Shown here one piece after another: positions 7,562 to 35,605 of a DNA stretch of 64,000 nucleotides. This DNA comes from Thermovibrio sp. (GTDB taxonomy: Bacteria > Aquificota > Aquificia > Desulfurobacteriales > Desulfurobacteriaceae). The notes under the pieces were generated by a model. The model saw nothing but the letters and a program-made list of their open reading frames with translations, had not been told where the DNA came from and ran no database searches. Every line of letters starts with the position of its first letter. The stretch's first letter is position 1. The translations under genes were made by a program, and so were the position numbers. The stretch covers positions 1-64,000 of the forward strand of contig WFNZ01000035.1 in the NCBI GenBank assembly GCA_015488335.1, in the 5' to 3' direction.

Positions 7562-7638
7562 TGGTGGCGACGGGTGGAGTCGAACCACCGACCTGGCGGG
7601 TATGAGCCGCCCGCTCTAACCACCTGAGCCACGTCGCC
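7562..7638 (-). tRNA. tRNA-Met (anticodon CAU), elongator type
   Basis: A full cloverleaf reads on the minus strand: acceptor GGCGACG pairs with CGTCGCC, the D arm is GCTCAGGTGGTTAGAGC, the anticodon stem GGCGG/CCGCC encloses the loop CTCATAC (anticodon CAT), and the T arm contains GGTTCGACTCC. CCA is encoded. Initiator tRNA is excluded because the acceptor has a paired 1-72 and the anticodon stem lacks three G-C pairs next to the loop. The acceptor and the ATACCCG context resemble bacterial elongator tRNA-Met rather than tRNA-Ile(CAU). It sits between the two-subunit oxidoreductase and tilS on the same strand. Confidence 0.92.
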
Positions 7639-7677: not shown

Positions 7678-8475
7678 TCAAACCCTCTCTTCGTAGGTTG
7701 GTTTCTCTACCTGGTAGAAGATTCCTATGGGTATTCTGGCATCCTCAGTATCTGCCGAGTAATCCCACTCCCTTGCCCTCTCTACGGCGGCGTTAAAGTC
7801 TGTCGGATTGTGGCCGGCCTCTTCTAACTTATAGCAGTGTTTCCTGTAGTAGGCAAAGGTGTTGTAGAAGGTTACGCAGGGCTGAAGAACATCTATGAAA
7901 GAGAAGCCTTTATGCTTTATTGCCGCCTTTATGAGCTCCTTAAGGTGTGGAATGTCTCCGGCAAAGCCCCTTGCAACAAAGGTTGCCCCGGCAGAGAGCA
8001 TCAGGAGAACCGGGTTCATAGGGTCTTCCGGCGGCCCCTCAGGAGTTGACTTTCCCTTAAAGTGTGAAGGACTCGTTGGGGTAAACTGGCCGGTTGTTAG
8101 GCTGTATGATCGGTTGTCGTGAACAATTGCCGTTAGATTCGCGTTCCTCTTTGCAGCAAAGATGAGGTGTGAAATACCCTCTGCATAGATGTCTCCGTCT
8201 CCAACAAAACCGACGCAGACCAGTTTATCGTTTATGAGCCTCATACCTTCTAAGTTGTTTAAAGCCCTCCCGTGGATGGAGTAGAAGCTGTTGAGGTTGA
8301 TGTAGTCAACGATTTTCCCGTGGCAACCGATTCCAGAGGCTATAACGAAGTTCTCAATTGGAATTTCAGAGGAAAGCTCCTCAACGGCCATCTCAAAAGC
8401 CCTGAGTATTCCAAAGTTTCCACACCCGGGGCACCAGGTGTTCTCTGCGTAGGTTTTAAGGTTTACTCCGCTCAT
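7678..8475 (-). CDS. 2-oxoacid:ferredoxin oxidoreductase, beta subunit (two-subunit type)
   Basis: 265 residues. It carries thiamine-diphosphate binding features: WCPGCGNFGILRAF near the N-terminus (a cysteine pair that also ligates the Fe-S cluster), SGIGCHGKIVDY, and the ThDP motif GDGD followed by N about 27 residues later (VHDN). With the alpha chain it forms a heterodimer that interconverts a 2-oxoacid plus CoA with acyl-CoA, CO2 and reduced ferredoxin. The substrate cannot be read from the sequence; family members act on 2-oxoglutarate or pyruvate. The ATG overlaps the alpha-subunit stop (ATGA). It is a second, divergent copy beside the four-subunit enzymes elsewhere in the window. Confidence 0.9.
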   Translation of the reverse strand: MSGVNLKTYAENTWCPGCGNFGILRAFEMAVEELSSEIPIENFVIASGIGCHGKIVDYINLNSFYSIHGRALNNLEGMRLINDKLVCVGFVGDGDIYAEGISHLIFAAKRNANLTAIVHDNRSYSLTTGQFTPTSPSHFKGKSTPEGPPEDPMNPVLLMLSAGATFVARGFAGDIPHLKELIKAAIKHKGFSFIDVLQPCVTFYNTFAYYRKHCYKLEEAGHNPTDFNAAVERAREWDYSADTEDARIPIGIFYQVEKPTYEERV

Positions 8476-10106
8476 CTCTCCCTCCCTGAAAGGAACTCTA
8501 AAAGGTCTTCCTTAAAGATTGGACGGGTGTCATACTTCCTGAACCTACCTGTAGGCTTTATCCCGTAAAGGTTTAAGAGCTTTTCAAACTGCCCGGCGGG
8601 GGAGAGCTCCACAACAATAACCTCTTCTGCCCCCTCAATTTCTTTCTTTAACCTGTTTGCGGGGAAAGGTTCCATGTAGTTGGGCTTAACAGCCTTGTAG
8701 CCGAGCTCCTCTCCAATTTCACAGCAGACTCCCCAGTTCTCTCCCCAGGTGAGGAGAATCCGCTTAGAGTTTGTATCCCCTCCAACAGAAACCGTATCTT
8801 CCCTCTCCTCAAAGAACTTCCTTATGGTCTCCCTCTTCCTCTCTCTCTTGTTCTTCATTGCAACTATCTGCTCTGGCTCCTCTGTTGTTATTCCCATCTC
8901 GTCGTGCTCGTAGCTTGTGGCTTTAACAACTGCCCCTTTAGTTCCCGGAAAGGCTAAAGGAGAAATGCCGTCTTCAGTTATCCGGTATCTCTTATACTCA
9001 CCGTTTCCGTCCCAGAGTTTGGGCTCCTCAACAACTCGCTCCCTCTCTAAGGGCTGTGTAAAGAAGCTCTCTGCAACGTTCTTGCTTGAAAGGACTATTA
9101 CGGGAACCTGGAACTTCCAGGCAAGGTTCAAGGCCTCGCGGGTTAAGAGGTAACATTCCAGAGCGTTTGACGGGGCAACAACGATTCTGGGAAAGTCTCC
9201 GTGGCCGGCAAAGAGTGAAAAGAGCAGGTCTGCCTGCTCTGTGTAGGTGGGAACGCCTGTTGAGGGAGCTCCCCTCTGAGCAAGGTAGATAACGGACGGT
9301 GTCTCGCTCATTCCTGCAAGGCTAAGGGTCTCCGTCATAAGGGCAAATCCTCCGCCGGAAGTCCCGGTCATGGCTCTGCCTCCGGCGTATGCCGCTCCAA
9401 GAACCATGTTTATAACGCCAATTTCGTTCTCAGGCTGAACGACCTTTATCCCGAACTCCTCTTTGTGGGCCGCCAAATAGTGGAGAACCGGAGACGCAGG
9501 GGTCATGGGGTAAGCAATGTAGATATCCAAACCGCCGTCAACTGCCCCAAGGGCTACACCTTCACTGCCTGAAAAGTACTCTCCCTTAATTCCCTCAACC
9601 TCAACAATTTCTTCTACTTCCTGTGAAACATCGTAAAAGAACTCAAAAATCTCTCTGTTCTCCTCAAAGTTCTTAAGGTTCTGAAGAACAGACAGACCCT
9701 CCTCTTTTGGAATTCTGAATGCCTTTAAGAGGGCACCTAAAACAGCGGAGCTCCTCATAACCCCCTTAGCCCTCTCTCTGAAGGGAAGTCTGATTACTGT
9801 TCCCTCCACCTCCTCCTTAACCTTTTCATCTAAGAACCAGACTGTTCCTTCCTTTGCATCTTTTCTGTGGCGCCTAACGCTCCTGTCGTCTAAAGCAACA
9901 ATGTAGTCAGCCTTCCTGACGGGAGCGTAAACTTCCTCGTTTGAGAATCTGACAGACGAAAAGTTGTGGCCTCCCCTTATCAGCGACGGATAGTCGTGAT
10001 AAGTAAAGACCGAGTAGCCGATGCTGACGAGAACACGGGAGAGAAGGTTTCCCGCCTCCTTTACTCCCTCTCCCGCTTCTCCTCCGACGATGACTGAACG
10101 CTCCAT
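8472..10106 (-). CDS. 2-oxoacid:ferredoxin oxidoreductase, fused gamma-alpha subunit
   Basis: 544 residues. An N-terminal gamma domain (about 1-175) begins SVIVGGEAGEGVKEAG, followed by an alpha domain containing the YPMTPASPVLHYL loop (YPxTP, contacts CoA/ThDP) and the conserved TGTSGGGFALMTE and AQRGAPSTGVPTYTEQADL segments. Fusion of gamma and alpha is the hallmark of the two-subunit class known from archaea, mycobacteria and Hydrogenobacter-type Kor. The start ATG has AAGGAGGGG just upstream and overlaps the upstream synthetase gene by 46 bases. A close operon with an ADP-forming acyl-CoA synthetase suggests that acyl-CoA made or used here is exchanged with a free acid. Confidence 0.92.
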   Translation of the reverse strand: MERSVIVGGEAGEGVKEAGNLLSRVLVSIGYSVFTYHDYPSLIRGGHNFSSVRFSNEEVYAPVRKADYIVALDDRSVRRHRKDAKEGTVWFLDEKVKEEVEGTVIRLPFRERAKGVMRSSAVLGALLKAFRIPKEEGLSVLQNLKNFEENREIFEFFYDVSQEVEEIVEVEGIKGEYFSGSEGVALGAVDGGLDIYIAYPMTPASPVLHYLAAHKEEFGIKVVQPENEIGVINMVLGAAYAGGRAMTGTSGGGFALMTETLSLAGMSETPSVIYLAQRGAPSTGVPTYTEQADLLFSLFAGHGDFPRIVVAPSNALECYLLTREALNLAWKFQVPVIVLSSKNVAESFFTQPLERERVVEEPKLWDGNGEYKRYRITEDGISPLAFPGTKGAVVKATSYEHDEMGITTEEPEQIVAMKNKRERKRETIRKFFEEREDTVSVGGDTNSKRILLTWGENWGVCCEIGEELGYKAVKPNYMEPFPANRLKKEIEGAEEVIVVELSPAGQFEKLLNLYGIKPTGRFRKYDTRPIFKEDLLEFLSGRER

Positions 10107-12043
10107 ACTCCCCTCCTTATTGAGTTAACTGCCCTGTAAGGGTCTGGATAGACAGGAATTTTCTCTCTTTTCAGAATCTCAACTCCCTTTGAAACTGAGT
10201 GTCCTCCCATAAAGCAGCCAACAACCGCCCTTCTGCTCCTCTCGGCAAGCTTCACAACCTCGTGGGCAATTTCGGGAACGTCCGTCATAGACTGTGGAGT
10301 AACGATTACGAGGCAGACGTCCCAGTTCAGTTTCTCAAGTATCTCAAAGGCTGCCCTGTAGCGGTCCGAAGTGGCATCCCCTATCAGGTCAACGGGGTTT
10401 ATCCTACTCCAGTTTGGCGGAAGGACTCTTGAGAGCTCCTCAAGAACAGGCTTAACGGAAACAAGCTCAAGTCCGAAGGTGGTTCCGTAGTCTGCAGCCA
10501 GAGTCCCCGGCCCTCCGGCGTTTGTAACTATCAAAAGCTTATTTCCCCCAAGTCTTCCGTAAGCAGTTAGGAACTGGCAGGCGTCAAAGGCCTCCTCTAA
10601 GGAATCAACGACGATTCCCCCTCTACACTCAACGGCATCCTTAAAGACCTTATAGTTCCCGGCAAGTGAGCCTGTGTGGGATGCTGCAGCCCTCTTTCCA
10701 CCCTCAGACCTTCCGGCCTTTATAAAAACGGCAGGTTTTTCGCCCACAAAATCAAGGAGCTCCCACCCGAGCTCCAACCCCTCAACATAGGAAAGGATAA
10801 CTTTTGTATCAGAACTCCTAACGGCAAGTTCAAAACACTCAGTTAGCTCAATGTCTGACTGGTTCCCAAGGCTTATAACTTCAGAAAATCCGATACTCTC
10901 TTTAGATGCTGCGTCAACAACGGCTGTTATGAGAGCTCCGCTCTGTGAGAGGAAAGAGATTTCACCTTCCGGCGGAAGGGTTGTTGAAAAAGAGGCGTTC
11001 AAACCTAACGGCGGAACCATAAAGCCTAAAGTGTTGGGGCCCAAAACCCTGATTCCAAACTCCTTTGCAACTTCAACGACCTCCCTCTCAAGCTCCTCCC
11101 TTCCGGCCTCTCTAAAACCTGCAGAGATAACAACGGCAAGCTTTACTCCCTTCTCTCCGCACTCCTTCAAAACAGCGGGAACAACTTCTGCCGGAACGGC
11201 TATAAGGGCGCAGTCAACAGGTTCTGGAATCTCTTTAACAGAAGGGTAGCACTTAAAACCCAAAACTCTCTCATACTTCGGGTTAACGGGGAAGACCTTC
11301 CCTTTAAACCTCTCAAGGTTCCTGACAAGGGCGTAGCCAACCTTTTTCGGGTTTGTTGAAGCACCGATAACGGCAACGCTTTCAGGCCTGAACAGGTTAT
11401 CTGGAAGAGGTTTAAAATTTCTTCTTCTTTCAGGTTCCTTAAGGAGAGCTCTCCCGTCTGCCGGAATGACGTACTCTTCTGTAATGAAGGTTGGGTTCAG
11501 ATCAAGCTCGTAAATTTCAGGGTGTTCAGAAAGAAGCTTTTTAAGTTTTTCAATAAAATCAAGGAAGAGTTCAGTATTCCCTTTGAAGTTTCTAAACCCT
11601 TCAATCAGTTTATAGAGCTCTGTCTTTTTAATCTGCTCCAGAGTCTCTTCTCTATTGGCCTTTAGCGGAATAAAAACAACGTCTTTAAAGAGCTCCACGA
11701 AAATTCCGCCGGTTCCGGCTCCAACAACGTGAAGGAAAGACGGGTCTCTCTTTACACCTACAAAGGCCTCTATGCCGGAGAGCTTCTCTTCAACGATGAA
11801 CTCTTCTACCTCTGGGAACTTCCGTTCCAGCTCAGAGACTGCCCTTTTTAGTTCTTCCCGGCTGCTTACAAACAGAACACCACCTGCACTGCTTTTGTGA
11901 ATCACTTTTCCTGAAACCACTTTAACGACGGCGGGAAAGGTGTTCCAGGAAGGGAGCTCCCCTCTTTTAAAGAGAGAGTAATCAGGAACAGATATACCGT
12001 AAGAGACGAGGAGCCTATAAACGTCAGGTTCTGTCAGGAACAA
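10061..12043 (-). CDS. ADP-forming acyl-CoA synthetase (acetate-CoA ligase type), fused with ATP-grasp domain first
   Basis: 660 residues. The N-terminal ATP-grasp (beta-type) domain covers about 1-200 (VVSGKVIHKSSAGGV, EAFVGVKRDPSFLHVVGAG). A CoA-binding Rossmann domain starts at about 222 (VAVIGASTNPKKVG), and the succinyl-CoA-ligase-like domains follow with the phosphorylatable histidine in AASHTGSLAG (His456). It catalyses acid + CoA + ATP to acyl-CoA + ADP + Pi, reversibly. Many homologues have the alpha part first or as separate subunits; here the order is beta-alpha. The start is TTG with GGAGAG a few bases upstream. A perfect TATAAT lies about 30 bases upstream of the start. The substrate (acetate, succinate or a branched acid) is not determinable. 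Confidence 0.9.
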   Translation of the reverse strand: MFLTEPDVYRLLVSYGISVPDYSLFKRGELPSWNTFPAVVKVVSGKVIHKSSAGGVLFVSSREELKRAVSELERKFPEVEEFIVEEKLSGIEAFVGVKRDPSFLHVVGAGTGGIFVELFKDVVFIPLKANREETLEQIKKTELYKLIEGFRNFKGNTELFLDFIEKLKKLLSEHPEIYELDLNPTFITEEYVIPADGRALLKEPERRRNFKPLPDNLFRPESVAVIGASTNPKKVGYALVRNLERFKGKVFPVNPKYERVLGFKCYPSVKEIPEPVDCALIAVPAEVVPAVLKECGEKGVKLAVVISAGFREAGREELEREVVEVAKEFGIRVLGPNTLGFMVPPLGLNASFSTTLPPEGEISFLSQSGALITAVVDAASKESIGFSEVISLGNQSDIELTECFELAVRSSDTKVILSYVEGLELGWELLDFVGEKPAVFIKAGRSEGGKRAAASHTGSLAGNYKVFKDAVECRGGIVVDSLEEAFDACQFLTAYGRLGGNKLLIVTNAGGPGTLAADYGTTFGLELVSVKPVLEELSRVLPPNWSRINPVDLIGDATSDRYRAAFEILEKLNWDVCLVIVTPQSMTDVPEIAHEVVKLAERSRRAVVGCFMGGHSVSKGVEILKREKIPVYPDPYRAVNSIRRGVWSVQSSSEEKRERE

Positions 12044-12072: not shown

Positions 12073-12101
12073 ATTATATCTCCTATTGGGAAAATCTATC
12101 A
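12073..12101 (-). promoter_or_regulatory. Promoter of the acyl-CoA synthetase/oxidoreductase operon
   Basis: On the minus strand there is a perfect -10 hexamer TATAAT (12073-12078) and, 17 bases upstream, TGATAG as a weak -35. Transcription would begin about 25 bases before the TTG of the synthetase gene. No other clear promoter interrupts the following minus-strand genes, so it may feed much of the 12-kb run. Confidence 0.45.
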
Positions 12102-12137
12102 GCAAAATCTAGGAGTCTTTAAAATCCCAGTAAGTGG

Positions 12138-12684: not shown

Positions 12685-14221
12685 AACTATATTTGGAAAG
12701 CTGTTTCTCTATACTATAGCTATCTTTCTATTTTCTTTTTTTCTCACATACTATGGAACTTCTTACCTGTTAAAAGATAGCCTTGAAGACAACTTTAGAA
12801 AAAAAGCAGAAGCAGAGACAGAACTACTAACCTCTTACATTCAGTCTTTGATAAAAAACTATAACTATACGGAAATCTATTCACTGGTAAATCAAACTAT
12901 AAATAGGGATCCAGATGTAGTCGGAGTAGAGGTAAAAGAGCTTTCAAGCGACCTTATAAGTATAAAACTAATAGGAAACTTGAAACAGTGTAGAGATAAT
13001 TTTTTAGAACCGTGTTACTATACTGTAGAGAAAAACATCAAAACAAGTATCCCTATAAAAGTTATAGTATTTTTCTCAACGGAGAATCTGGTTGATTTGG
13101 TCCAATCTGTAAGAAAAACTCTAATTTCCCTTTTAGTATTCCTATTCCTTTTCTCAGAACTTGCAATATTTATCGTAATGAGAGACGCGGAAAACACGGT
13201 TTCTAAAGTGGTTGAAGCCATAGACAGGTGGAGAGAAGGTGGAATAGAGAAACTGAAAAATGAAAACTGGAGTTTTGAAATTAAGAAGATAGTATCAGAA
13301 GTAGTTGAAATGTACACAGAACTCCAGAGAGAAAGGGAAATAGACTATAAACTCCTTCTATTTACCGGAGAAATTCTTAATATGATTCCCCTCATTAATG
13401 ACGAAGAAGAATTTCTCAAGAAGACTACCTTACTAATCAAAACAGTTTTTAAGCTAAAAGAGGTAAAACTATGTAAAGAGAAACAGGATTGTAAAGGAGA
13501 ACGCATATTAACTACCTCTAACTTTAGTATCGTAATCCCAGGAAAAAGTATCCCCGACACAGTCTTAAAAACTCTGGGAAACATCATATTGGGAGCTCTA
13601 AAAGTTTTACAGGAGAAAAGAGAGAGGGAGGAACTTCTCTTTGGAACCGTTAAAGCCATAGCAAATGCAATTGACGCAACATCTCCATGGACAAAAGACC
13701 ACAGCGAAAAAGTGGCAGAGATATCTGTAGAAATTGCAAGAGCTCTGAATTTAGACGAAGAGACTGTTGAGAAGATAAGGTTAGGAGCTCTCCTCCACGA
13801 CATAGGAAAGTTAGGAATTCCACCTGACATACTCAACAAACCGGAAAGGTTAACCCCGGAAGAGTACGAAATCGTAAAGGAACATCCGGTATGGGGATAC
13901 AGAATACTGAAACCTATTAAAGCCTTTTCTGAGATTATTCCTATTGTTCTGTACCATCACGAAAGGTGCAACGGCAGTGGTTATCCTTACGGGCTTAAGT
14001 GCAACCAGATTCCACTTCCTGCAAAGATAGTGGCCGTAGCAGACGTTATAGAGGCCATGACTGCGAAAAGACCCTACAAAAAACCGTACCCATTAAAAGA
14101 GGTTTTTGAGTATCTGAAGAGTGAGGCTGGAAGACTATTCTCTCCTGAAGTTGTTGAGGCTGCACTGAAAAAAGCTGAGGAGATAGAGGAAATTATTAGT
14201 GGTCGGGGCGGGGGGATTTGA
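12659..14221 (+). CDS. Membrane HD-GYP domain protein (cyclic-di-GMP phosphodiesterase type)
   Basis: 520 residues starting at a GTG that overlaps the ferritin-like gene by 26 bases. Two transmembrane helices (about 12-34 and 148-170) enclose a periplasmic sensor of about 110 residues. A cytoplasmic linker with a Cys-x4-Cys pair (about 270-280) follows, then an HD-GYP domain (about 330-510) with HDIGKLGIPPDIL, HHERCNGSGYPYGL and the downstream DVIEAMTAKRPYK. The HD and GYP residues are intact, so hydrolysis of c-di-GMP is likely. The last seven codons (SGRGGGI, stop) are read from the antisense strand of the tRNA-Pro gene, so the C-terminus is dictated by tRNA sequence. Upstream base composition is A/T-richer than in neighbouring operons. 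Confidence 0.88.
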   Translation: MLLERVKPKTIFGKLFLYTIAIFLFSFFLTYYGTSYLLKDSLEDNFRKKAEAETELLTSYIQSLIKNYNYTEIYSLVNQTINRDPDVVGVEVKELSSDLISIKLIGNLKQCRDNFLEPCYYTVEKNIKTSIPIKVIVFFSTENLVDLVQSVRKTLISLLVFLFLFSELAIFIVMRDAENTVSKVVEAIDRWREGGIEKLKNENWSFEIKKIVSEVVEMYTELQREREIDYKLLLFTGEILNMIPLINDEEEFLKKTTLLIKTVFKLKEVKLCKEKQDCKGERILTTSNFSIVIPGKSIPDTVLKTLGNIILGALKVLQEKREREELLFGTVKAIANAIDATSPWTKDHSEKVAEISVEIARALNLDEETVEKIRLGALLHDIGKLGIPPDILNKPERLTPEEYEIVKEHPVWGYRILKPIKAFSEIIPIVLYHHERCNGSGYPYGLKCNQIPLPAKIVAVADVIEAMTAKRPYKKPYPLKEVFEYLKSEAGRLFSPEVVEAALKKAEEIEEIISGRGGGI

Positions 14222-14277
14222 ACCCCCGACCTCTTGGTCCCGAACCAAGCGCGCTGACCAGGCTGCGCCACGCCCCG
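14200..14277 (-). tRNA. tRNA-Pro (anticodon CGG)
   Basis: The minus strand folds as a cloverleaf: acceptor CGGGGCG with CGCCCCG, the D arm GCGCAGCCTGGTCAGCGC, the anticodon stem CTTGG/CCAAG with loop TTCGGGA (anticodon CGG, reading CCG), and the T arm GGGGGTTCAAATCCCCC. CCA is encoded at 14200-14202. It lies at the end of the bioB operon on the same strand. Its 3' half overlaps the end of the opposing HD-GYP reading frame by 22 bases. Confidence 0.93.
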
Positions 14278-14306: not shown

Positions 14307-15245
14307 TTAACCATCAGGAAGTTTTAGGTTTGATTCAAAGCCAAGGTCTTTTATCATCTGGTAGTCGTCTCTCAGGCTTCTGCCCTTTGTCGTAAGGTAG
14401 TTCCCAACCATTAGGGCGTTTGCAGGAAAGAGGGAAAGGGGCTGGAGCTCCCTCAAGTTCCTCTCCCTTCCACCACAGACCCTTATTTCAGCTTCGGGAA
14501 TTGAAAGCCTTATGGCAGTTAATATTCTCAGGCATTTTAAAGGAGTAAGGTAGTCTGCCCCCTCCAAAGGTGTTCCCTTAATGGGATGGAGGAAATTGAC
14601 GGGAATTGAGTCTACAGAGAGCTCCCTCAAACTCTCTATAAAAGAGACAACATCTTCTTCAGACTCTCCAAGGCCAAAAATTCCACCGCAGCATGTTGAT
14701 AGGCCTACCTCTTTTGCAGTAAGAACCGTTCTGTAGCGGTCTTCCCAACTCTGAACGGTAGAAATTTTCGGGTAGAACTCTCGGGATGTCTCAAGGTTGT
14801 GGTGGTACCTGTCAAGGCCGCAGGACTTTAAAAAGGAGAGTTCCTCCTTTCCCATCTGCCCTAAAGAGGCGCAGACTTTACAGTCCGGCTTTTCAGCTTT
14901 CAACTTTTCAATCACTTTTCCTATAACCTTTAAATCCTCCCTAGTAGGTGAAACTCCGCTTGTTACAAAGCTGAAACGGTCTATTCCAAGGTCAAAGGCA
15001 GAGAGAGCTCTCTCAAGGAGCTCCTTTTCAGGAAAGAGAGGGTAAACCCTAATCCTCAAGTTAAAGTGTGAAGACTGGGCACAGAATTTACAGTCTGACG
15101 GACAGCTGCCGCTTTTAGCGTTTAAAATGGCACAGGTCTCTATGAAATTACCGAAATGACGGAACTTCAACCTGTTGGCTTCAGAAAGGAATTCGTAGAA
15201 TTTCTCAACTGGGGAGTTCAGAACTTCTAAGATTTGCTCTTTCAC
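14307..15245 (-). CDS. bioB: Biotin synthase
   Basis: 312 residues. Radical-SAM signature SGSCPSDCKFCAQS (CxxxCxxC binding the 4Fe-4S cluster) lies near residue 48. The later conserved segments HNLETSREFYPKI, CCGGIFGLGES, PVNFLHPIKGTPLE and a terminal RVCGGRERNLRELQP-like region hold the ligands of the second, sulfur-donating cluster. It inserts sulfur into dethiobiotin. The start is GTG overlapping the mglA stop (GTGA). bioA is 24 kb away on the other strand, so the pathway is scattered. It is the last protein gene of the ybaB-to-bioB operon, with tRNA-Pro following. Confidence 0.97.
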   Translation of the reverse strand: MKEQILEVLNSPVEKFYEFLSEANRLKFRHFGNFIETCAILNAKSGSCPSDCKFCAQSSHFNLRIRVYPLFPEKELLERALSAFDLGIDRFSFVTSGVSPTREDLKVIGKVIEKLKAEKPDCKVCASLGQMGKEELSFLKSCGLDRYHHNLETSREFYPKISTVQSWEDRYRTVLTAKEVGLSTCCGGIFGLGESEEDVVSFIESLRELSVDSIPVNFLHPIKGTPLEGADYLTPLKCLRILTAIRLSIPEAEIRVCGGRERNLRELQPLSLFPANALMVGNYLTTKGRSLRDDYQMIKDLGFESNLKLPDG

Positions 15246-15823
15246 TTCTTCAGCTTCTTCAGAACCTGGCGGGTTATCTCTTTAAAGGTTTCAAGGACTC
15301 CTATACCTTTTGTGGCAACCGCTTCAAAGTCTGGTCTGTTCCATCTGTTCAGGTCTTTCCTCAAAACCTCAACAGGAAGGATGTTGGGAAGGTCTCTCTT
15401 GTTGTACTGGAAGACTAAGGGGAGCTCCTCCATGTTTATATCGTATTCTTTCAAGTTTTCAAGCATATCGTCCAAAGTATCAAGGTTCGCGTCGTGCCTC
15501 TCCTCTTGAGAGTCGGCAACGAAAACAACTCCATCAACGCCCTTTAAAATCAGCTTACGGCTTGCCTGGTAGATTATTTGACCGGGAGTTGTGTAAAGGT
15601 GGAAGCGGACCTTAAAGCCTTTAACGTTTGAAACCTCAATGGGAACGAAGTCAAAGAAGAGAGTTCTCTCTGTTTCTGTAGCAAGTGTAATCATTTCACC
15701 CTTGTTTTCAGGCTTTATATGGTCGTAAATCCATTTAATGTTAGTGGTCTTCCCGGAAAGTCCGGGGCCGTAGTACACTATTTTGCAGTTTATCTCTTTA
15801 GTAGCAAAGTTGATAAATGGCAT
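15242..15823 (-). CDS. mglA: MglA-type small Ras-like GTPase
   Basis: 193 residues. G1 is GPGLSGKTTN, G3 TTPGQ (the MglA form lacking the usual DxxG aspartate), and G4 NKRD within QYNKRDLPN. The N-terminus MPFINFATKEINCKIVYYG is a hallmark of MglA-group bacterial GTPases, which set cell polarity and control motility or pili in Myxococcus and Thermus. It is paired with a Roadblock-domain partner directly upstream, the normal GAP. Location inside an operon with pyruvate:ferredoxin oxidoreductase and bioB is unexpected. Gap to the upstream gene is 8 bases; downstream bioB overlaps. Confidence 0.93.
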   Translation of the reverse strand: MPFINFATKEINCKIVYYGPGLSGKTTNIKWIYDHIKPENKGEMITLATETERTLFFDFVPIEVSNVKGFKVRFHLYTTPGQIIYQASRKLILKGVDGVVFVADSQEERHDANLDTLDDMLENLKEYDINMEELPLVFQYNKRDLPNILPVEVLRKDLNRWNRPDFEAVATKGIGVLETFKEITRQVLKKLKK

Positions 15824-15831
15824 TCAATCCC

Positions 15832-16305
15832 CTACTCAAAAAGGGTATCAAGGTCTATATCTTCAACGTCTATATGCTCTGCAACAGAAGATTCCCTCTT
15901 TATTCTGTCTTCTATCTGGCTTAAAAGCTCAACCAATTTTTTATAGTACTTCTTAATCTTAACTCTAACGATACCTAAGTTTGATAAATTTTTATCAAAG
16001 ATAGAAACTAAGATGTACTTTCCATCAATCAGAATCATATAAATACCTTCTTCTTCCGTTTCAGTAAACATATGATTTAAAGTTTTATCTCCCAAAAGTT
16101 TTGAGAGAGCCTCAGAAGCAGCTACATTTCCAGCTGTAAGGGAAGCAAAGGTTATGTCATCAGAAGAGAAAGCCGGAGACTCGCTCCGGCTGATTAGCTG
16201 ACCAGCTTTGTCTATCAAGAGAACAATTTTTGACTTGCTTTCTCTGTTGAGCTCTGTGAGGAGCTCCCTTAACTTTCTATCCTCTTCTGGCCTTAAACTA
16301 AGCAT
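15832..16305 (-). CDS. mglB: Roadblock/LC7-domain protein (MglB, GTPase-activating partner of MglA)
   Basis: 157 residues starting at the ATG that overlaps the porB stop (TGATG); a GTG one codon upstream is also possible. The Roadblock fold pattern is clear: an N-terminal helix (EDRKLRELLTELNRES), then KIVLLIDKAGQLISRS, a helix starting ASLTAGNVAASEALSKLLG, EEGIYMILIDGKYILVSIFDKNLSNLG and a final helix. The C-terminal tail is acidic (HIDVEDIDLDTLFE). Such proteins stimulate GTP hydrolysis by MglA and help place it at a pole. The adjacent mglA makes the pairing secure. Confidence 0.9.
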   Translation of the reverse strand: MLSLRPEEDRKLRELLTELNRESKSKIVLLIDKAGQLISRSESPAFSSDDITFASLTAGNVAASEALSKLLGDKTLNHMFTETEEEGIYMILIDGKYILVSIFDKNLSNLGIVRVKIKKYYKKLVELLSQIEDRIKRESSVAEHIDVEDIDLDTLFE

Positions 16306-17285
16306 CACTCTTCCCTGTTAGAGATTTCCTCCATCTTGTTGAGCCACTCCCAGCGCCTGTTAACCTCTTCCTGCAGCTCCTTGATTTTATCCTCATTTCC
16401 TGGCTTAAACAAGTGTTTAAACCTTCCCTGAAGTTTAAGGTATTCCTCAATGGGTTTAGGATTCTTAGGCCTGTGAGTTATTCTCCACTTCCCGTTTTCA
16501 ACTTCAAAGAGGGGCCAGTAGTTGGTTTCCACAGCCATTTTAGTGACCAAAATACCCTCTTCCTCTTTTGATCTCCAGCCCCTCGGGCAAACTGCAAAGG
16601 CATTTATGTAGGAAGGCCCTTCCGTTAAAAGGGCTTTCTTGAACTTCTCCATAAAGTCCTTCCAGTGGGAAGGTGCAACCTGAGCAACATAAGGGATGCC
16701 GTGGGCTGCAGCAACTTCTGGCATCCACTTCTTGTGCTGTGGCTTACCCAAGCTCTCAGAACCTACCGGCTGGGTAGTTGTGTTGGCGTATTTTGGAGTT
16801 GCAGAGGAACGCTGAATACCTGTGTTCATGTAGGCTTCGTTGTCGTAGCAGACGTAGATGAAGTCGTGTCCCCTCTCAAGGGCTCCGGAAAGAGACTGGA
16901 AACCGATGTCGTAGGTTCCACCGTCTCCACCAAAGGCTACAAACTTAACTTTCTTATCTGTTGGAAGTTTACCCTTCCTTTTTAAGGCTTTGTATGCCGC
17001 CTCAACGCCGGAAATTGTGGCAGCAGCGTTTTCAAAGGCGTTGTGAATCCACGGAGAGCGCCAAGAGGTGTAGGGGTAGATAGACGTGCAGACCTCAACG
17101 CAACCGGTTGCGTTGGCAATTATGAGCTCGTAGCCAAGGGCGTTTGCAACCATGAACATCTGCCTGATGATGATTGAAGCTCCACAGCCTGCACAGAGCC
17201 TGTGGCCAGGAGCTAACTTCTCAGGGTAGTTCGTGAGCTTCTTAAGAGGCGGAACTTTTATCTCAGCCGTCTTTATCTCAGCCAT
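16305..17285 (-). CDS. porB: Pyruvate:ferredoxin oxidoreductase, beta subunit
   Basis: 326 residues from the ATG at 17283-17285, which has GGAGG 5 bases upstream; an ATG four codons earlier overlaps the porA stop but lacks a site. It has the thiamine-diphosphate and Fe-S features of PorB: HRLCAGCGASIIIRQ, NATGCVEVCTSIYPY, and GDGGTYDIGFQSLSGALE with the following DNEAYMNTGIQRS. Together the four subunits make pyruvate from acetyl-CoA and CO2 with reduced ferredoxin, or run in reverse. The Y-MNTG segment is characteristic of pyruvate-type rather than 2-oxoglutarate-type beta chains. Confidence 0.95.
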   Translation of the reverse strand: MAEIKTAEIKVPPLKKLTNYPEKLAPGHRLCAGCGASIIIRQMFMVANALGYELIIANATGCVEVCTSIYPYTSWRSPWIHNAFENAAATISGVEAAYKALKRKGKLPTDKKVKFVAFGGDGGTYDIGFQSLSGALERGHDFIYVCYDNEAYMNTGIQRSSATPKYANTTTQPVGSESLGKPQHKKWMPEVAAAHGIPYVAQVAPSHWKDFMEKFKKALLTEGPSYINAFAVCPRGWRSKEEEGILVTKMAVETNYWPLFEVENGKWRITHRPKNPKPIEEYLKLQGRFKHLFKPGNEDKIKELQEEVNRRWEWLNKMEEISNREE

Positions 17286-17296
17286 TACTTCCTCCA

Positions 17297-18505
17297 TTAC
17301 TCTTTAAGGTTAAGGTAGTTGATGAATGGAACCTCTTTCCCTGCAGCAGCCTGCATTACCTTGTCTATGGCCTCCTCAATGTGGTGGACGTTTGTATCCC
17401 TTCCACCTAAACCGTAGATGAAGCTGACAATGGGGTAGTGTTTGTTCCTCAAGTACATTGCAGTGGCAACGTCGCTGTAGAGGGGTCCTCCAACTGCTCC
17501 AAAGGTTTCAGCTCTGTCAAATACACCAACGGCCTTGCAGTTTGAGGCCTCTATTGCGTCCATAACGTCGTAGTACGGGAAAGGCCTGTAAGTTCTAATT
17601 TTGATGAGACCTACTTTAATGCCTTTCTCATCCCTCAGTTTATCTATTACGTACTTGGCAGTTCCGGCAGTTGAGCCGATAACTATGAGGATGTAGTCGG
17701 CATCTTCGGTTTTGTAGGTCTCTATGTGTTCGTACTTTTTGCCGAAGGCTTCTTCAAAGGCCTCACCTACCTCTCTTATTACCTTGTAGGCGTTCATCAT
17801 GGCCTCCCTCTGCTGCCTCTTAAACTCCATGTAGGAGTCTGTCATGGCAACGGGGCCGTGGGTTACGGGGTTGTCAACGTCTAAGAGGGGGTACATAACC
17901 TTTGTCTCCCCAACAAACTCCTCAACGGCTTTGTCTGGAAGGAGCCTGACTCTCTCAATTGAGTGGGAGATTACAAAGCCGTCCATTCCAACCATTACGG
18001 GAAGCCTTGTTCTCTCATCTTCAGCTATCTTTATAGCCTGAATCAGGTTGTCGTACTGCTCCTCAGCGTTCTCAGAGAAGATCTGAATCCAGCCCTGGTC
18101 TCTGGCTCCCATCATGTCAGACTGGTCGCCGTGGATGTTGATGGGGGCTGAAAGTGCCCTGTTTACAACCGTCATAACGATCGGAAGCCTCATTCCGGAA
18201 GCGATGCCGAGGACTTCCCACATGTAGGCAAGACCGGGACCTGCCGTTGCTGTCATTGCCCTGCTCCCGGCAGCTGCGGCACCAACGCAGGCAGACATTG
18301 CGGAGTGCTCACTCTCAACGGGAATGTACTCTGTATCAACCAAACCGTTGGCGACGAAGTCTGCAAAGAACTGCATAAGCTCCGTTTGGGGAGTGATCGG
18401 GTATGCCGCAACAACGTCTGGGTTTATCTGTCTCATGGCCTCGGCGGCTGCCATGTTTCCCGAGTAGGGAACGTACTTAACCTCTTTTATGAGCTCAGGC
18501 CTCAT
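17297..18505 (-). CDS. porA: Pyruvate:ferredoxin oxidoreductase, alpha subunit
   Basis: 402 residues. The alpha-chain loop YPITPQTELMQFF lies near residue 35, followed by the conserved VESEHSAMSACVGAAAAGSRAMTATAGPGLAYMWE and the NIHGDQSDMMGARDQGWIQIF segment typical of pyruvate-type enzymes. The C-terminal domain has VIGSTAGTAKYVID and KIRTYRPFPYYDV. It sits one base after porD and 11 bases before the porB start, so the porC-porD-porA-porB order is a tight block. In an autotroph with a reductive TCA cycle this enzyme is the pyruvate synthase. Confidence 0.96.
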   Translation of the reverse strand: MRPELIKEVKYVPYSGNMAAAEAMRQINPDVVAAYPITPQTELMQFFADFVANGLVDTEYIPVESEHSAMSACVGAAAAGSRAMTATAGPGLAYMWEVLGIASGMRLPIVMTVVNRALSAPINIHGDQSDMMGARDQGWIQIFSENAEEQYDNLIQAIKIAEDERTRLPVMVGMDGFVISHSIERVRLLPDKAVEEFVGETKVMYPLLDVDNPVTHGPVAMTDSYMEFKRQQREAMMNAYKVIREVGEAFEEAFGKKYEHIETYKTEDADYILIVIGSTAGTAKYVIDKLRDEKGIKVGLIKIRTYRPFPYYDVMDAIEASNCKAVGVFDRAETFGAVGGPLYSDVATAMYLRNKHYPIVSFIYGLGGRDTNVHHIEEAIDKVMQAAAGKEVPFINYLNLKE

Positions 18506-18506
18506 T

Positions 18507-18797
18507 TCAGTCCTCCTCCCGGAACAGGTATTCGGGTTTCATCTCAAGGGCGTTGGTTGGACACTCGTGGGCACAGATTCCGCAGCCTTTACAGTGGTCG
18601 TAATCAACGCCAACCATCTTCTCTTCCTTAACTAAAATGCAGGAGTCTGGGCAGAAGACCCAGCAGAGCATACAGTTGACGCACTTGTCAGACTCAAATA
18701 CAGGTCTCCAGGCCCTCCACTCTCCGGTGTGGTACTTCTCACTTGAACCGGGTTCAGGTATAACTGCTCCTATGGGTAACTCTCTCCAGCTCTTCAT
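18507..18797 (-). CDS. porD: Pyruvate:ferredoxin oxidoreductase, delta (2x 4Fe-4S ferredoxin) subunit
   Basis: 96 residues with two 4Fe-4S motifs in the C-terminal half: CVNCMLCWVFCPDSC and CKGCGICAHECPTNA. The N-terminal 40 residues (SWRELPIGAVIPEPGSSEKY-type sequence) match the extended PorD chain. It transfers electrons between ferredoxin and the catalytic dimer. The ATG overlaps the porC stop (ATGA). Its neighbours on both sides are the other subunits of the same complex. Confidence 0.95.
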   Translation of the reverse strand: MKSWRELPIGAVIPEPGSSEKYHTGEWRAWRPVFESDKCVNCMLCWVFCPDSCILVKEEKMVGVDYDHCKGCGICAHECPTNALEMKPEYLFREED

Positions 18798-19360
18798 TCT
18801 GACCTTACCTCCTTATAAGCTCTGTGTAGTGCCCTTATGTTTGCGTTGAGGGCGTTCTCTGAGATCTTCTTGCCGAAGGCTCTTTTGATGTCTTCTTCAA
18901 CGGTTTTGATGTCTACAAGGCCGTTCAGGACTTTTACGAGAGCTCCAAGCATCGGAACGTTCATGAGGGGTCTTTTCAGCTCCTCCATTGCAATCTTCGT
19001 TGCATCTACGGTGTAGATTTTTCTCCCCTTGATGCCGTATTTCTCTCTTATTTCCTGAGGAGATTTGTCTGTGTTGATGATGAGGATTGCGTTTTCGTCT
19101 GTTCCCTCTAAGAAGGGAACGGTTTTAAGGAGCGTCGGGTCAACAACTATAACGATGTCGGGGTTTATGACCATACAGTGGAGAGTGATGGGTTTTTCGG
19201 AAACCCTGTTGTAGGCCCTTAGGGGAGCTCCCGACCTCTCAGCTCCGTAGTCGGGGTTGCTCTGAGCGTACTTACCCTCCTCAATAACGGCAGAGGCCAG
19301 AATCTTTGATGCCGTAACGGCACCCTGACCACCCCGGGCGTGCCACCTAATCTCAATCAT
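18794..19360 (-). CDS. porC: Pyruvate:ferredoxin oxidoreductase, gamma subunit
   Basis: 188 residues. It begins MIEIRWHARGGQGAVTASKILASA, the gamma-chain signature, and continues with YAQSNPDYGAERSGAPLRAYNRVS and PLMNVPMLGALVKV. A GGAGGAAG site precedes the ATG, and the start overlaps the recR stop by 8 bases. The gamma chain packs on alpha and helps bind CoA. It heads the por block inside the ybaB-to-bioB operon. Confidence 0.96.
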   Translation of the reverse strand: MIEIRWHARGGQGAVTASKILASAVIEEGKYAQSNPDYGAERSGAPLRAYNRVSEKPITLHCMVINPDIVIVVDPTLLKTVPFLEGTDENAILIINTDKSPQEIREKYGIKGRKIYTVDATKIAMEELKRPLMNVPMLGALVKVLNGLVDIKTVEEDIKRAFGKKISENALNANIRALHRAYKEVRSE

Positions 19361-31257: not shown

Positions 31258-32427
31258 ATGAAAATCCACGAGTATCAGGCTAAAGAGATATTTAAGAAGT
31301 ACGGCCTGCCCGTTCCGAGGGGAATAGTTGCCCACGACGCCAAAGAGGCAGAGTGCGCAGCAAAAGAGCTTGGAACACCAGTAGTTGTAGTTAAGGCCCA
31401 AGTTCACGCCGGTGGAAGGGGTAAGGCAGGTGGAGTCAAGCTTGCAAAGTCCCCGGAAGAGGCCGGCAAAATAGCTGCCGAAATGATAGGCAGCAGGCTC
31501 AAAACCTATCAGAACCCTGAAGGCCTGCCCATAAACTGCGTCCTCATTGAAGAAGGGGTAAACATAGATAAGGAGTTCTACGTAGGCCTCACTTTGGACA
31601 GGGAAGTTTCAAGGCCTGTATTTATGGTCTCTGCAGCAGGCGGAATGGAGATTGAGGAAATTGCAAAGACAAACCCCGAGCTGATAATAAAGGAGCACGT
31701 TGACCCTGCAATCGGTCTTTTACCTTACCAGGCAAGGAAGATAGCCTACAAGATAGGACTTACAGATAGAAAACTGGTCAGCCAGTTTGTGAAAATCCTT
31801 ATGACCCTATCAAAGATGTACTTTGACCTTGACGCTTCACTCATTGAGATAAACCCGCTGGTCAAAACGAAAGAGGACAACTTCATCTGCTTAGACGCAA
31901 AGATTGACTTTGACGACAACGCCCTCTACAGACACCCAGACATTCAGGAGCTTGAAGACACAACTCAGATTGACCCGTTAGAGCTTGAGGCCAAGAAGTG
32001 GGACCTCAACTACGTGAGGCTTGATGGAAACATCGGCTGTATGGTTAACGGTGCCGGCCTTGCAATGGCAACTATGGACACGATCAAGTTCTACGGCGGA
32101 GAGCCTGCAAACTTCTTAGACGTTGGTGGAACAGCTACTGTTGAGAGGGTAGCTGCAGCGTTCAGGCTTCTCCTCTCAGACCCTAAAGTGAAGGCAATCT
32201 TTGTAAACATTTTCGGCGGAATCGTAAGGTGCGACAGGATTGCCGGAGGAATTATAGAGGCCGCAAAACAGGTTGATCTTGACAGGCCTCTAATCGTTCG
32301 CCTTGAGGGAACGAACGTTGAGCTTGGAAGGAAGATGCTTGAGGAGAGTGGCCTCAACATAATCCCTGCCAAAGACATGGCAGACGGTGCACAGAAGGCT
32401 GTAAAAGCAGCAAAAGGTGAACTATAA
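31258..32427 (+). CDS. sucC: Succinyl-CoA synthetase (ADP-forming), beta subunit
   Basis: 389 residues, normal length. It begins [22 protein letters not shown], with the ATP-grasp region [30 protein letters not shown] (metal-binding loop), [11 protein letters not shown] and [13 protein letters not shown], and [17 protein letters not shown]. It makes succinyl-CoA from succinate, CoA and ATP, feeding the adjacent 2-oxoglutarate:ferredoxin oxidoreductase in the reductive direction. GGGAGGAAAG precedes the ATG. sucD follows after 10 bases. Confidence 0.97.
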
Positions 32428-32437
32428 GGAGGGGAAA

Positions 32438-33340
32438 ATGAGCGTTTTAGTAAATAAAAACACGAAAGTAGTTGTTCAGGGGCTTACAGGTAAGGAGGGC
32501 TCTTTCCACGCGAAGCAGTGTTTAGACTACGGGACTCAGATAGTTGCAGGTGTAACTCCCGGTAAGGGTGGGCTCATCTGGAAGGACGATGAAGGAAAGT
32601 ATGAGGTTCCCGTTTTCAATACGGTTGAGGAAGCTGTAAAGGAAACAGGAGCAGACGCCTCCCTCATCTTCGTTCCACCTGCCTTTGCGGCAGACGCAAT
32701 AATGGAGGCAGCAGACGCAGGAATTAAGCTGATCGTCTGCATCACAGAGGGAATTCCCGTTAATGACATGGTTAAGGTTAAGAGAGCTCTGGAAGGAACT
32801 GGCGTTCGTTACATCGGTCCCAACTGCCCAGGGATCATCACTCCAGAAGAGTGTAAGATGGGAATTATGCCCGGCCACATCTTCAAGAAGGGAAGGGTTG
32901 GAATCGTATCCCGTTCAGGGACCCTTACTTACGAAGCTGCCTACCAGCTGACAACGAGGGGAATCGGCCAGTCAACTGTTATTGGAATCGGTGGAGACCC
33001 TGTTCCAGGAACAACCCACAGGGAAGCCGTTGAGATGTTCAACAACGACCCCGATACAGATGCAATTGTCCTCATAGGGGAGATTGGCGGAACTATGGAA
33101 GAGGAAGCCGCAGAATACATTAAGGAGAACGTTGAGAAGCCTGTTGTTGCATACATAGCCGGAGTTACAGCTCCTCCGGGAAGGAGGATGGGACACGCTG
33201 GAGCAATTATCTCTGGCGGTAAGGGAGACGCTAAGAGCAAGATGGAAGCATTAAGAGCCGCCGGAGCTTACGTCTGCAACACTCCCGCCGAAATTGGCGA
33301 GATGATGGAAAAAGCCTTAAAGGAAAGAGGACTTCTCTAA
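32438..33340 (+). CDS. sucD: Succinyl-CoA synthetase (ADP-forming), alpha subunit
   Basis: 300 residues from the ATG preceded by AAGGAGGGGAAA; the frame is open 21 bases further upstream, but that would overlap sucC. The CoA-binding domain has [16 protein letters not shown] and GVTPGKGG. The catalytic domain has [23 protein letters not shown] and the phospho-histidine motif [10 protein letters not shown]. It completes the heterodimer with SucC. The kor genes follow after 11 bases, all with strong GGAGG sites, so this is a single operon for succinate to 2-oxoglutarate. Confidence 0.97.
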
Positions 33341-33351
33341 AGGAGGAAAGT

Positions 33352-33579
33352 ATGGCTGTAAAGGGAATTGTTGAAGTTAGAGAGGACTGGTGCAAGGGGT
33401 GCAACATCTGCGCATCAGTCTGCCCCACAAAGGTTCTTGAGCTTGACAAAGTTAGGGCAGTCATGACCGTTGCACATCCTGAGAAGTGTATTGGATGTAA
33501 GCAGTGTGAAATGATATGCCCCGACTTCTGCATCTACGTTTTCACTCCAGAGGAGTACAAAGAAATAGCAAGCGCTTAA
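33352..33579 (+). CDS. korD: 2-oxoglutarate:ferredoxin oxidoreductase, delta (ferredoxin) subunit
   Basis: 75 residues with two 4Fe-4S motifs, CKGCNICASVCPTKVL and CIGCKQCEMICPDFC. It is shorter than PorD because it lacks the N-terminal extension, as usual for 2-oxoglutarate-type delta chains. It donates electrons to the alpha-beta catalytic unit. It opens the korDABC block directly behind sucCD, and an AAAGGAGG site precedes the ATG. Confidence 0.93.
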   Translation: MAVKGIVEVREDWCKGCNICASVCPTKVLELDKVRAVMTVAHPEKCIGCKQCEMICPDFCIYVFTPEEYKEIASA

Positions 33580-33590
33580 GGGAGGAAAGT

Positions 33591-34742
33591 ATGGCAAAGC
33601 TTGAGATTAAGTATGGAAACCACGCCTGTGCAGAGGCTGCAATCCTTGCAGGCTGCAGGTTTTATGCAGGTTACCCGATTACACCATCTTCTGAGATCGC
33701 TGAGAGGATGGCGGAGCTCCTACCCCGCCACGGAGGAGCGTTCATCCAGATGGAGGACGAGATAGCCTCTATGGCTGCAGTTGTTGGAGCTTCTTTTGCC
33801 GGCGCAAAGGCTATGACAGCAACCTCTGGCCCCGGTTTCTCACTGAAACAGGAAAACCTCGGCTATGCGTTTATGGTTGAAGCTCCCTGTGTTGTAGTAA
33901 ACGTTCAGAGGGGCGGCCCGTCAACAGGTCTTCCAACCCAGATCGGCCAGCAGGAGATTATGCAGTCCCTCTGGGGAACCCACGGAGACAAGCTTATTCC
34001 CGTCTTCTACCCGGGAAACGTTCAGGAGATAATGGAAGAGACGATTAGGGCGTTCAACTGGGCAGAGAGACTGAGAACTCCCGTTGTTCTCCTCTTAGAC
34101 GAAGTCCTCGGCCACATGAGGGAAACCGTTGACATGGAGCAGTTCACACCTGATAAGGTTGAGATCTGGAACAGGAAGATGCCCGACGTTCCACCTGAAG
34201 AGTATCTTCCATACAAGCCCGGAGAGGACGACGTCCCTGCAATAGCTCCCTACGGGACACCGGGATACAGGGGACACGCAACAGGTCTTCACCACGACTA
34301 CACAGGCTTCCCAACAACAAACCCTGAGATGTGCGAAGAGCTGATTGAGAGGCTCATCAGGAAGGTTAAGAGAAATCAGCCTGAGATGGAGAAGAACGAG
34401 GAGTATAAGTTAGACGATGCCGAAGTGGCAATTGTGGCCTTTGGAACAACTGCAAGGGCTGCAAAGACTGCCGTTGACATGGCAAGGGAGAAGGGAATCA
34501 AGGCAGGCCTTTTAAGGGTTGTAACCATCTGGCCATCTCCGGAAGAGACACTCAACAAGCTGGCAAAACACGTTAACGCAATCTTAGTTCCAGAGCTCAA
34601 CATGGGTCAGTACGTCCTTGAGGTTGAGAGGTGCGCCAGGGGAGAAGCTCCCGTTTACAGGCTCAACAGGGCAAACGGTAAGGTTATCTACCCGTCTGAG
34701 ATCCTCTCAAAACTTGAGGAGATTGCAAAAGCAAGAGTTTAA
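33591..34742 (+). CDS. korA: 2-oxoglutarate:ferredoxin oxidoreductase, alpha subunit
   Basis: 383 residues from the ATG with GGGAGGAAAGT just upstream; a longer frame (from 33516) overlaps korD and is rejected. The loop YPITPSSEIAERM, the MEDEIASMAAVVGASFAGAKAMTATSGPGFSLKQEN region and NVQRGGPSTGLPTQIGQQE are the 2-oxoglutarate/2-oxoacid alpha-chain signatures. Adjacent sucCD makes 2-oxoglutarate the likely product in CO2 fixation (succinyl-CoA + CO2 + reduced ferredoxin). Confidence 0.94.
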   Translation: MAKLEIKYGNHACAEAAILAGCRFYAGYPITPSSEIAERMAELLPRHGGAFIQMEDEIASMAAVVGASFAGAKAMTATSGPGFSLKQENLGYAFMVEAPCVVVNVQRGGPSTGLPTQIGQQEIMQSLWGTHGDKLIPVFYPGNVQEIMEETIRAFNWAERLRTPVVLLLDEVLGHMRETVDMEQFTPDKVEIWNRKMPDVPPEEYLPYKPGEDDVPAIAPYGTPGYRGHATGLHHDYTGFPTTNPEMCEELIERLIRKVKRNQPEMEKNEEYKLDDAEVAIVAFGTTARAAKTAVDMAREKGIKAGLLRVVTIWPSPEETLNKLAKHVNAILVPELNMGQYVLEVERCARGEAPVYRLNRANGKVIYPSEILSKLEEIAKARV

Positions 34743-34753
34743 GGAGGTAAGTA

Positions 34754-35605
34754 ATGAACGTTCCCTTTGAGAAAGTTCTTGAGAAAAAGGAGTCTTACTT
34801 TAAATACTTAAGGCTTGACAAGCTCCCAACCATCTGGTGCCCTGGGTGTGGAATCGGTCAGGCACTTAAGGCAACCTGCATGGCCCTCTACGACCTTGGA
34901 ATTGATAATGACCAGGTTGCAATGGTTTCAGGTATCGGATGTTCTTCAAGGACTCCCGGTTACTTTGACGGATTTACTCTACACACAACCCACGGAAGGG
35001 CTTTAGCCTTTGCAACAGGCCTGAAACTATTTAAGCCTGAGCTCACAACGATTGTCTTCACAGGAGACGGAGACTGCTTTGCAATCGGCGGAAACCACTT
35101 CATCCACGCAGCCCGCAGGAACATTGACGTAACAGTTGTTATGATCAATAACTGGATATACGGAATGACCCACGGACAGGTTTCGCCGACAACTCCCCTT
35201 GGCTCACAGACAACAACAACTCCTGGCGGAAACTACGAGCCCAACTTTGACGTTGCAGAGCTTGCAAAGGCCGCTGGAGCAACCTACGTTGCAAGGGGAA
35301 CCGCCTACCACGTTACAGAGCTCAAGAAACTAATTCAAGACGGTATAAAGCACAAAGGGTTTTCATTCATTGAAGTTCTCTCTCCATGTACAATCATCTA
35401 CGGAAGGAAGAACAGGATGACCTTTGAAGAGATGTACATGTGGCTCAAGGAGAACACGATTCCCGTTAAAGCGTGGGAGAAACTTCCAGAGGAGAAAAGG
35501 GCTGGAAAGCTCCCAAGGGGTGTTCTCTACCACGACGACTCAAGGCCTGAGTATACAGAGGTTTACTGGAACAGGGTTAAGCAGCTTTCCGGAGGTGAAA
35601 AATGA
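34754..35605 (+). CDS. korB: 2-oxoglutarate:ferredoxin oxidoreductase, beta subunit
   Basis: 283 residues. WCPGCGIGQALKA near the N-terminus, SGIGCSSRTPGYF, and the ThDP motif GDGDCFAIGGNHFIHAARRN with the following MINNWIYGMTHGQVSPTTP identify the beta chain. The latter segment separates 2-oxoglutarate-type from pyruvate-type chains. AAGGAGGTAAGT precedes the ATG. The 3' end overlaps korC by 4 bases (ATGA). Confidence 0.95.
   Translation: MNVPFEKVLEKKESYFKYLRLDKLPTIWCPGCGIGQALKATCMALYDLGIDNDQVAMVSGIGCSSRTPGYFDGFTLHTTHGRALAFATGLKLFKPELTTIVFTGDGDCFAIGGNHFIHAARRNIDVTVVMINNWIYGMTHGQVSPTTPLGSQTTTTPGGNYEPNFDVAELAKAAGATYVARGTAYHVTELKKLIQDGIKHKGFSFIEVLSPCTIIYGRKNRMTFEEMYMWLKENTIPVKAWEKLPEEKRAGKLPRGVLYHDDSRPEYTEVYWNRVKQLSGGEK

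Follow-up and report, generated by a model that had tools for sequence, protein, structure and literature searches.

Background

In the fermentation of peptides and sugars by Pyrococcus and Thermococcus, a 2-oxoacid:ferredoxin oxidoreductase (OFOR) and an ADP-forming acyl-CoA synthetase (ACD) catalyse reactions in series, as they would at the locus described here. There the enzymes are built of separate subunits and serve heterotrophs, whereas here they are encoded by overlapping genes in an autotroph of H2 and CO2. The OFORs of Sulfolobus tokodaii (StOFOR1/2; PDB 5B46-5B48) consist of a gamma-alpha fusion and a beta subunit with one [4Fe-4S] cluster and no ferredoxin domain, which is also the architecture at this locus, and the KorAB 2-oxoglutarate enzyme (OGOR) of Magnetococcus and Aquificaceae (PDB 6N2N) has an identical fused layout. 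In the Sulfolobus enzyme the substitutions D468A and K49I abolish 2-oxoglutarate activity and keep pyruvate activity, of which D468A retains only about 1% (PMC5020499). ACDs work through phospho-histidines (PMC11494057), and the single-chain ACDs of archaea and Thaumarchaeota (NF045494; 3-hydroxypropionate--CoA ligase, PDB 9Y43) share their domains, domain order and both phospho-histidines with the synthetase here, although the latter scores far under their equivalog cut-offs. As regards sets of OFORs, Methanothermobacter has four anabolic ones (POR, KGOR, VOR and IOR; cited in PMC13285125); the genome studied here is similar in having four, and POR, KGOR and IOR each have a counterpart among them, while the fourth, unlike in the Methanothermobacter set, is not a VOR family member.

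We analysed a window of 64,000 nucleotides (the whole stretch considered, from contig WFNZ01000035.1) belonging to a metagenome-assembled genome of the Desulfurobacteriaceae (1.65 Mb, 99% complete), whose source is a hot-vent bacterium, an H2-driven, CO2-fixing autotroph. A three-gene operon in this window joins an ACD to a two-subunit OFOR. The same operon is present in Thermovibrio ammonificans HB-1, at 1,345,984 to about 1,350,350 of the chromosome. The accessible text of the published metabolic reconstructions of that species does not mention it, and our literature search found no published report of it.

Results

The operon and its overlapping genes

The operon lies on the minus strand at 7678-12043 of the window, in the order synthetase, OFOR gamma-alpha, OFOR beta. 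The fused ACD gene (10061..12043, TTG start, 660 aa) shares its last 46 bases (10061..10106) with the start of the OFOR gamma-alpha gene (8472..10106, ATG start, 544 aa), and the latter overlaps the OFOR beta gene (7678..8475, ATG start, 265 aa) by the four bases ATGA (8472..8475); the reading frames and both overlaps given by an earlier sequence-only reading proved exact on checking. A ribosome-binding site, AGGAGG, stands upstream of the OFOR alpha ATG inside the 46-base overlap, which recurs, at loci L150-L153, in three genomes of the same genus (G115, G116, G118) and in T. ammonificans. A promoter-like site upstream of the synthetase (12073..12102, minus strand) agrees with the consensus at 10 of 12 positions and is weak evidence, seven such sites being seen in the region against 3.3 +/- 1.6 expected. 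The operon is followed by a tRNA-Met (cat) at 7562-7638, which together with a tRNA-Pro (cgg) at 14200-14277, both on the minus strand, flanks the region.

Compared with their nearest relatives, the three genes are under purifying selection, with dN/dS of about 0.03-0.12 overall: about 0.035 for the OFOR genes, which is like porA, and 0.11 for the synthetase, so that by this comparison the synthetase changes more quickly than its partner enzyme. The arrangement is not due to chance, as it is kept in related genomes and dN/dS is low. In the closest pair (the synthetase at 10061-12043 and its counterpart at 8377-10359 of locus L151), the ATP-grasp part, the first third of the gene, is 76% identical with a dS of 1.7, while the rest is 97% identical with a dS of 0.27; this sharp change in divergence suggests a recombination boundary within the gene, between relatives.

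Subunits and catalytic residues of the oxidoreductase

The alpha subunit carries the Pfam domains POR and POR_N and scores 520 bits with TIGR03710 (cut-off 483), and the beta subunit carries TPP_enzyme_C and PFO_beta_C and scores 287 bits with TIGR02177 (cut-off 262). On these curated cut-offs and its conserved residues, the enzyme belongs to the two-subunit OFOR superfamily. In the alignment with 6N2N, 5B48 and 5B46, alpha S41, T202 (in YPMTP), R278, T283 and Y399 correspond to StOFOR1 S41, T256, R344, T349 and D468, and beta K54, L126 and T128 to K49, L123 and K125; beta Cys15, Cys18, Cys51 and Cys200 align as ligands for one [4Fe-4S] cluster, and GDGD...N121 as the TPP/Mg motif. The carboxylate-binding Thr and Arg, the TPP motif and the four cluster cysteines are therefore all kept, as are the equivalents of StOFOR Ser41, Thr349, Lys49 and Leu123. 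The enzyme differs from StOFOR in having Tyr for Asp468 and Thr for the CoA-site Lys125, in reading YPMTP, PENE and TSGGG instead of YPITP, xEDE and TSGPG, and in falling into a separate clade. In MmOGOR, whose group is likewise apart, the Asp468 position is taken by Leu and the Lys49 position by Arg, in contrast to the Tyr and Lys found here. Judged from these alignments and from that of the synthetase given below, both enzymes retain intact catalytic residues.

A separate OFOR clade marked by a tyrosine

The OFOR phylogeny called for by the sequence-only reading was built by maximum likelihood with a short search and SH-aLRT support only, and it puts the OFOR outside the characterised OGOR group (MmOGOR and Aquificaceae Kor). 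The OFOR groups with homologues of the Aquificaceae, which share 50-60% identity with it, next with a single Thermoproteota group (at most 48%) and with Asgard archaea (at most 45%), in a clade with a support of 100; StOFOR1 sits on a long branch, hence its own placement is unsure. This clade, common to Aquificaceae, Thermoproteota and Asgard archaea, is apparently uncharacterised. Tyr occupies the position of Sulfolobus Asp468 in 41 of 41 clade members and in none of the 22 scorable sequences among 32 other rows. Since the Lys49 equivalent is kept and that of Asp468 is not, 2-oxoglutarate becomes a less likely, though possible, substrate. Moreover, the separate clade and its clade-wide exchange of Asp468 for Tyr favour the earlier suggestion that this third OFOR of the window would differ in role from the four-subunit ones.

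Three other family models place the enzyme below their cut-offs: the archaeal broad 2-oxoacid equivalogs NF041170 and NF041171 give 356 bits (cut-off 800) and 262 bits (cut-off 423), respectively, and the 2-ketoisovalerate model VorB (PRK07119) gives 149 bits against 399, which leaves the OFOR outside the known VOR family.

The fused synthetase

The synthetase has the complete ACD domain set (Pfam ATP-grasp_5, CoA_binding_2, Succ_CoA_lig and Ligase_CoA_2) in beta-alpha order, with ATP-grasp at residues 3-198, CoA-binding at 222-342, Succ_CoA_lig at 359-492 and ligase-CoA at 504-633. All 6 of the Desulfurobacteriaceae sequences fetched show this order, against none of 53 other fused relatives; it is already known, two curated families aligning likewise. 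The candidate phospho-histidines H49 (IHKS) and H456 (SHTG) are invariant in the family alignment and align with the phosphate-carrying histidines of solved ACDs, the PDB matches being 2csu, 4xyl, 8wzu and 9y43. An AlphaFold2 model built from seven family sequences was poor (mean pLDDT 57).

Acetate--CoA ligase models give the alpha part its highest scores. For the synthetase all scores of this family are below curated cut-offs: 484 bits for the ADP-forming acetate--CoA ligase TIGR02717 (cut-off 567) and 436 for the Archaeoglobus acetate--CoA ligase NF045494 (cut-off 1200). The 3-hydroxypropionate--CoA ligase equivalog gives 339 bits (cut-off 1300) and, for the alpha part, sucCoAalpha TIGR01019 (sucD) only 39 (cut-off 353). 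With no substrate-specific model above its cut-off, the sequence does not tell the substrate.

Distribution in the family and beyond

Among 22 family genomes, 12 have both OFOR and ACD, two have ACD only, eight have neither (two of these being incomplete assemblies, 62-83%) and none has OFOR only, a co-occurrence with Fisher p = 1.4e-4 when kinship is ignored. The two genomes with ACD alone (G124, G125) carry ACDs of 48-51% identity. Where both are present the genes are adjacent in most genomes; in G133 they are separated by an insert with, by sequence reading, FIST- and GGDEF-like genes, and in G134 they lie on different contigs. An ADP-forming acetyl-CoA synthetase was reported absent from D. 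thermolithotrophum HR11 (PMC12724263), which fits the patchy distribution of the module in the family.

Next to the archaeal relatives no ACD was found, either in flanks of 1.5 kb or at 16 wider loci, and none lies beside the Aquificaceae homologues at the loci examined; accordingly the OFOR can do without this partner. Among the fetched loci outside the family, an OFOR stands beside an ACD only at L035 (korA/korB-like) and L070 (iorA-like), both of other OFOR types.

Other OFORs and acyl-CoA ligases of the genome

Both four-subunit enzymes that the sequence-only reading had placed in the window were recovered with NCBIfam and Pfam. The pyruvate-type OFOR (16305..19360, minus strand) comprises gamma (18794-19360), delta ferredoxin (18507-18797), alpha (17297-18505) and beta (16305-17297). 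On the plus strand, sucC (31258-32427) and sucD (32417-33340), identified by NCBIfam, Pfam and the ORF list, are followed directly by a four-subunit OGOR (33352-36228) with delta (33352-33579), alpha (33516-34742), beta (34754-35605) and gamma (35602-36228). Behind the pyruvate-type beta gene, on the same strand, lie genes for a Roadblock/LC7 protein and for a small GTPase of the Ras-like type (15242-16308), in an arrangement kept in relatives.

The whole genome has four POR_N proteins, namely POR, OGOR, the indolepyruvate enzyme IOR (608 bits with TIGR03336, slightly below the cut-off of 651) and the OFOR of the operon. It also encodes AMP-forming AcsA, two PaaK-like ligases (below the PaaK cut-offs), LeuA and CimA; acetate kinase was not found in the genome.

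Discussion

The operon is a conserved and functionally plausible pair; both enzyme families are known, and their combination is a variant and not a new kind of system. Our best reading, for which the chances seem about even, is a reversible module between acid, acyl-CoA and 2-oxoacid for small neutral acids, running mainly in assimilation. Its two enzymes would convert a carboxylic acid into the 2-oxoacid with one more carbon, or back: the synthetase would form the acyl-CoA via its two phospho-histidines at the cost of one ATP, and the OFOR would then add CO2 by means of TPP and one [4Fe-4S] cluster, drawing on two reduced ferredoxins, the assimilating direction being the one that would prevail in an H2-driven autotroph. 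The substrate would presumably be a small neutral acid (C2-C5, perhaps C3-C5), the single best guess being propionate or branched-chain acids, and the products, 2-oxobutyrate or branched 2-oxoacids, could then serve amino acids, in a role that may be likened to the 2-ketoisovalerate-type enzyme supplying amino-acid precursors in methanogens.

This explanation draws support from the overlaps, the kept gene order, the co-occurrence (12 of 12 genomes with the OFOR), the intact catalytic residues and the Tyr-marked clade apart from the OGORs. That the enzymes act together, as proposed from the sequence alone, agrees with the overlaps, the gene order and the lack of any OFOR without ACD among the 22 genomes, and we infer functional coupling. 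The choice of small or branched acids comes by elimination: the other three of the four POR_N proteins are POR, OGOR and IOR, AcsA would serve acetate, the two PaaK-like ligases and IOR would serve aryl acids, and no acetate kinase was found, which would leave this as the uncovered job. Against the explanation counts that the module is dispensable, since Leu and Ile synthesis is covered de novo (LeuA, CimA) and eight family genomes do without it. Against it also count the position of the OFOR outside the VOR family, the lack of an adjacent ACD in its Aquificaceae and archaeal relatives, the faster evolution of the ACD, and the inhibition of T. ammonificans growth by acetate and yeast extract in an earlier description (PMC3570795).

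A tenable though somewhat unlikely alternative is an acetate/pyruvate module, in which an ADP-forming acetyl-CoA synthetase and a second, two-subunit pyruvate synthase would either assimilate acetate at a lower cost, spending one ATP in place of two equivalents, or form acetate and gain ATP in the manner of hyperthermophilic archaea. It is favoured by the affinity of the synthetase alpha part to acetate--CoA ligase models and to solved acetate-type ACDs, by the missing acetate kinase, by archaeal clade OFORs near sugar-use genes (one genome) and Fwd-like genes (Asgard), which suggests central carbon, and by the uptake of acetate carbon in T. ammonificans, which assimilates it with no effect on growth (PMC12743299). 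However, POR and AcsA would make acetate assimilable without the operon pair, and every acetate--CoA ligase family score falls below its curated cut-off. Both enzyme types are reversible, hence assimilation and an ATP-gaining reverse path are both possible; a catabolic module, turning 2-oxoacids from amino acids or overflow into acyl-CoA and acid with a yield of ATP and reduced ferredoxin, would follow the use of OFOR and ACD established in Pyrococcus and other archaea (PMC3942289), but it is distinctly improbable, as T. ammonificans, which carries this operon too, does not grow heterotrophically on peptone, tryptone or Casamino acids (PMC3570795).

The sequence-only reading had also considered a second 2-oxoglutarate synthase that would have a succinyl-CoA source of its own. 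The kept Lys49 equivalent, needed for 2-oxoglutarate in Sulfolobus (PMC5020499), and an operon lying convergent to the sucCD-OGOR cluster in G129 would speak for it, but the presence of a canonical sucCD-OGOR cluster in the window, the OFOR clade separate from the OGORs with Tyr replacing Asp468, and the weak sucD match of the synthetase alpha part (39 bits, against 484 with the acetate--CoA ligase model) render it very improbable. Still harder to credit are neighbours with no common function, that is, a promiscuous OFOR translationally linked to an unrelated acyl-CoA synthetase: G124 and G125 have ACD alone, Aquificaceae and archaea have the OFOR without ACD, and the genes are unlinked in G134 and separated in G133, but within the family the OFOR always comes with ACD, even when unlinked, and the tight overlap is kept in two genera.

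If the preferred module assimilates acids, part of the Desulfurobacteriaceae (the pair being in 12 of the 22 genomes sampled) would fix CO2 at a step that does not belong to the reductive TCA cycle. A bolder proposal, which we regard as unlikely but conceivable, is that the clade, archaeal-like in character, has a substrate of its own, other than pyruvate, 2-oxoglutarate, 2-ketoisovalerate and indolepyruvate, and that in the Desulfurobacteriaceae the OFOR and the synthetase together give an autotroph a dedicated route by which an external organic acid enters with fixation of CO2. The Tyr-marked clade, in Aquificota, Thermoproteota and Asgard archaea and defined by one pocket residue, is a clear target for assigning orphan OFOR specificity.

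The archaeal neighbours of clade OFORs (amylases, Fwd-like genes and disulphide reductases) point to no consistent substrate. At five Asgard loci (L231, L234, L235, L237, L238) the OFORs are divergent to or near conserved FwdB-like (molybdopterin), FwdC-like (GXGXG) and polyferredoxin genes, a set which is likely formylmethanofuran dehydrogenase. In Aquificaceae (L161-L163, from G016, G009 and G061) the homologue adjoins a HydB/AsrA-like 4Fe-4S protein, followed in G016 and G009 by a NAD-binding HydG/AsrB-like protein, and convergent [NiFe]-hydrogenase genes come next at L161; the OFOR there might be linked to NAD(P)H or H2. At L165-L167, in the Aquificaceae genus g12, a gamma-alpha gene without adjacent beta has a membrane-transporter-like gene in its place.
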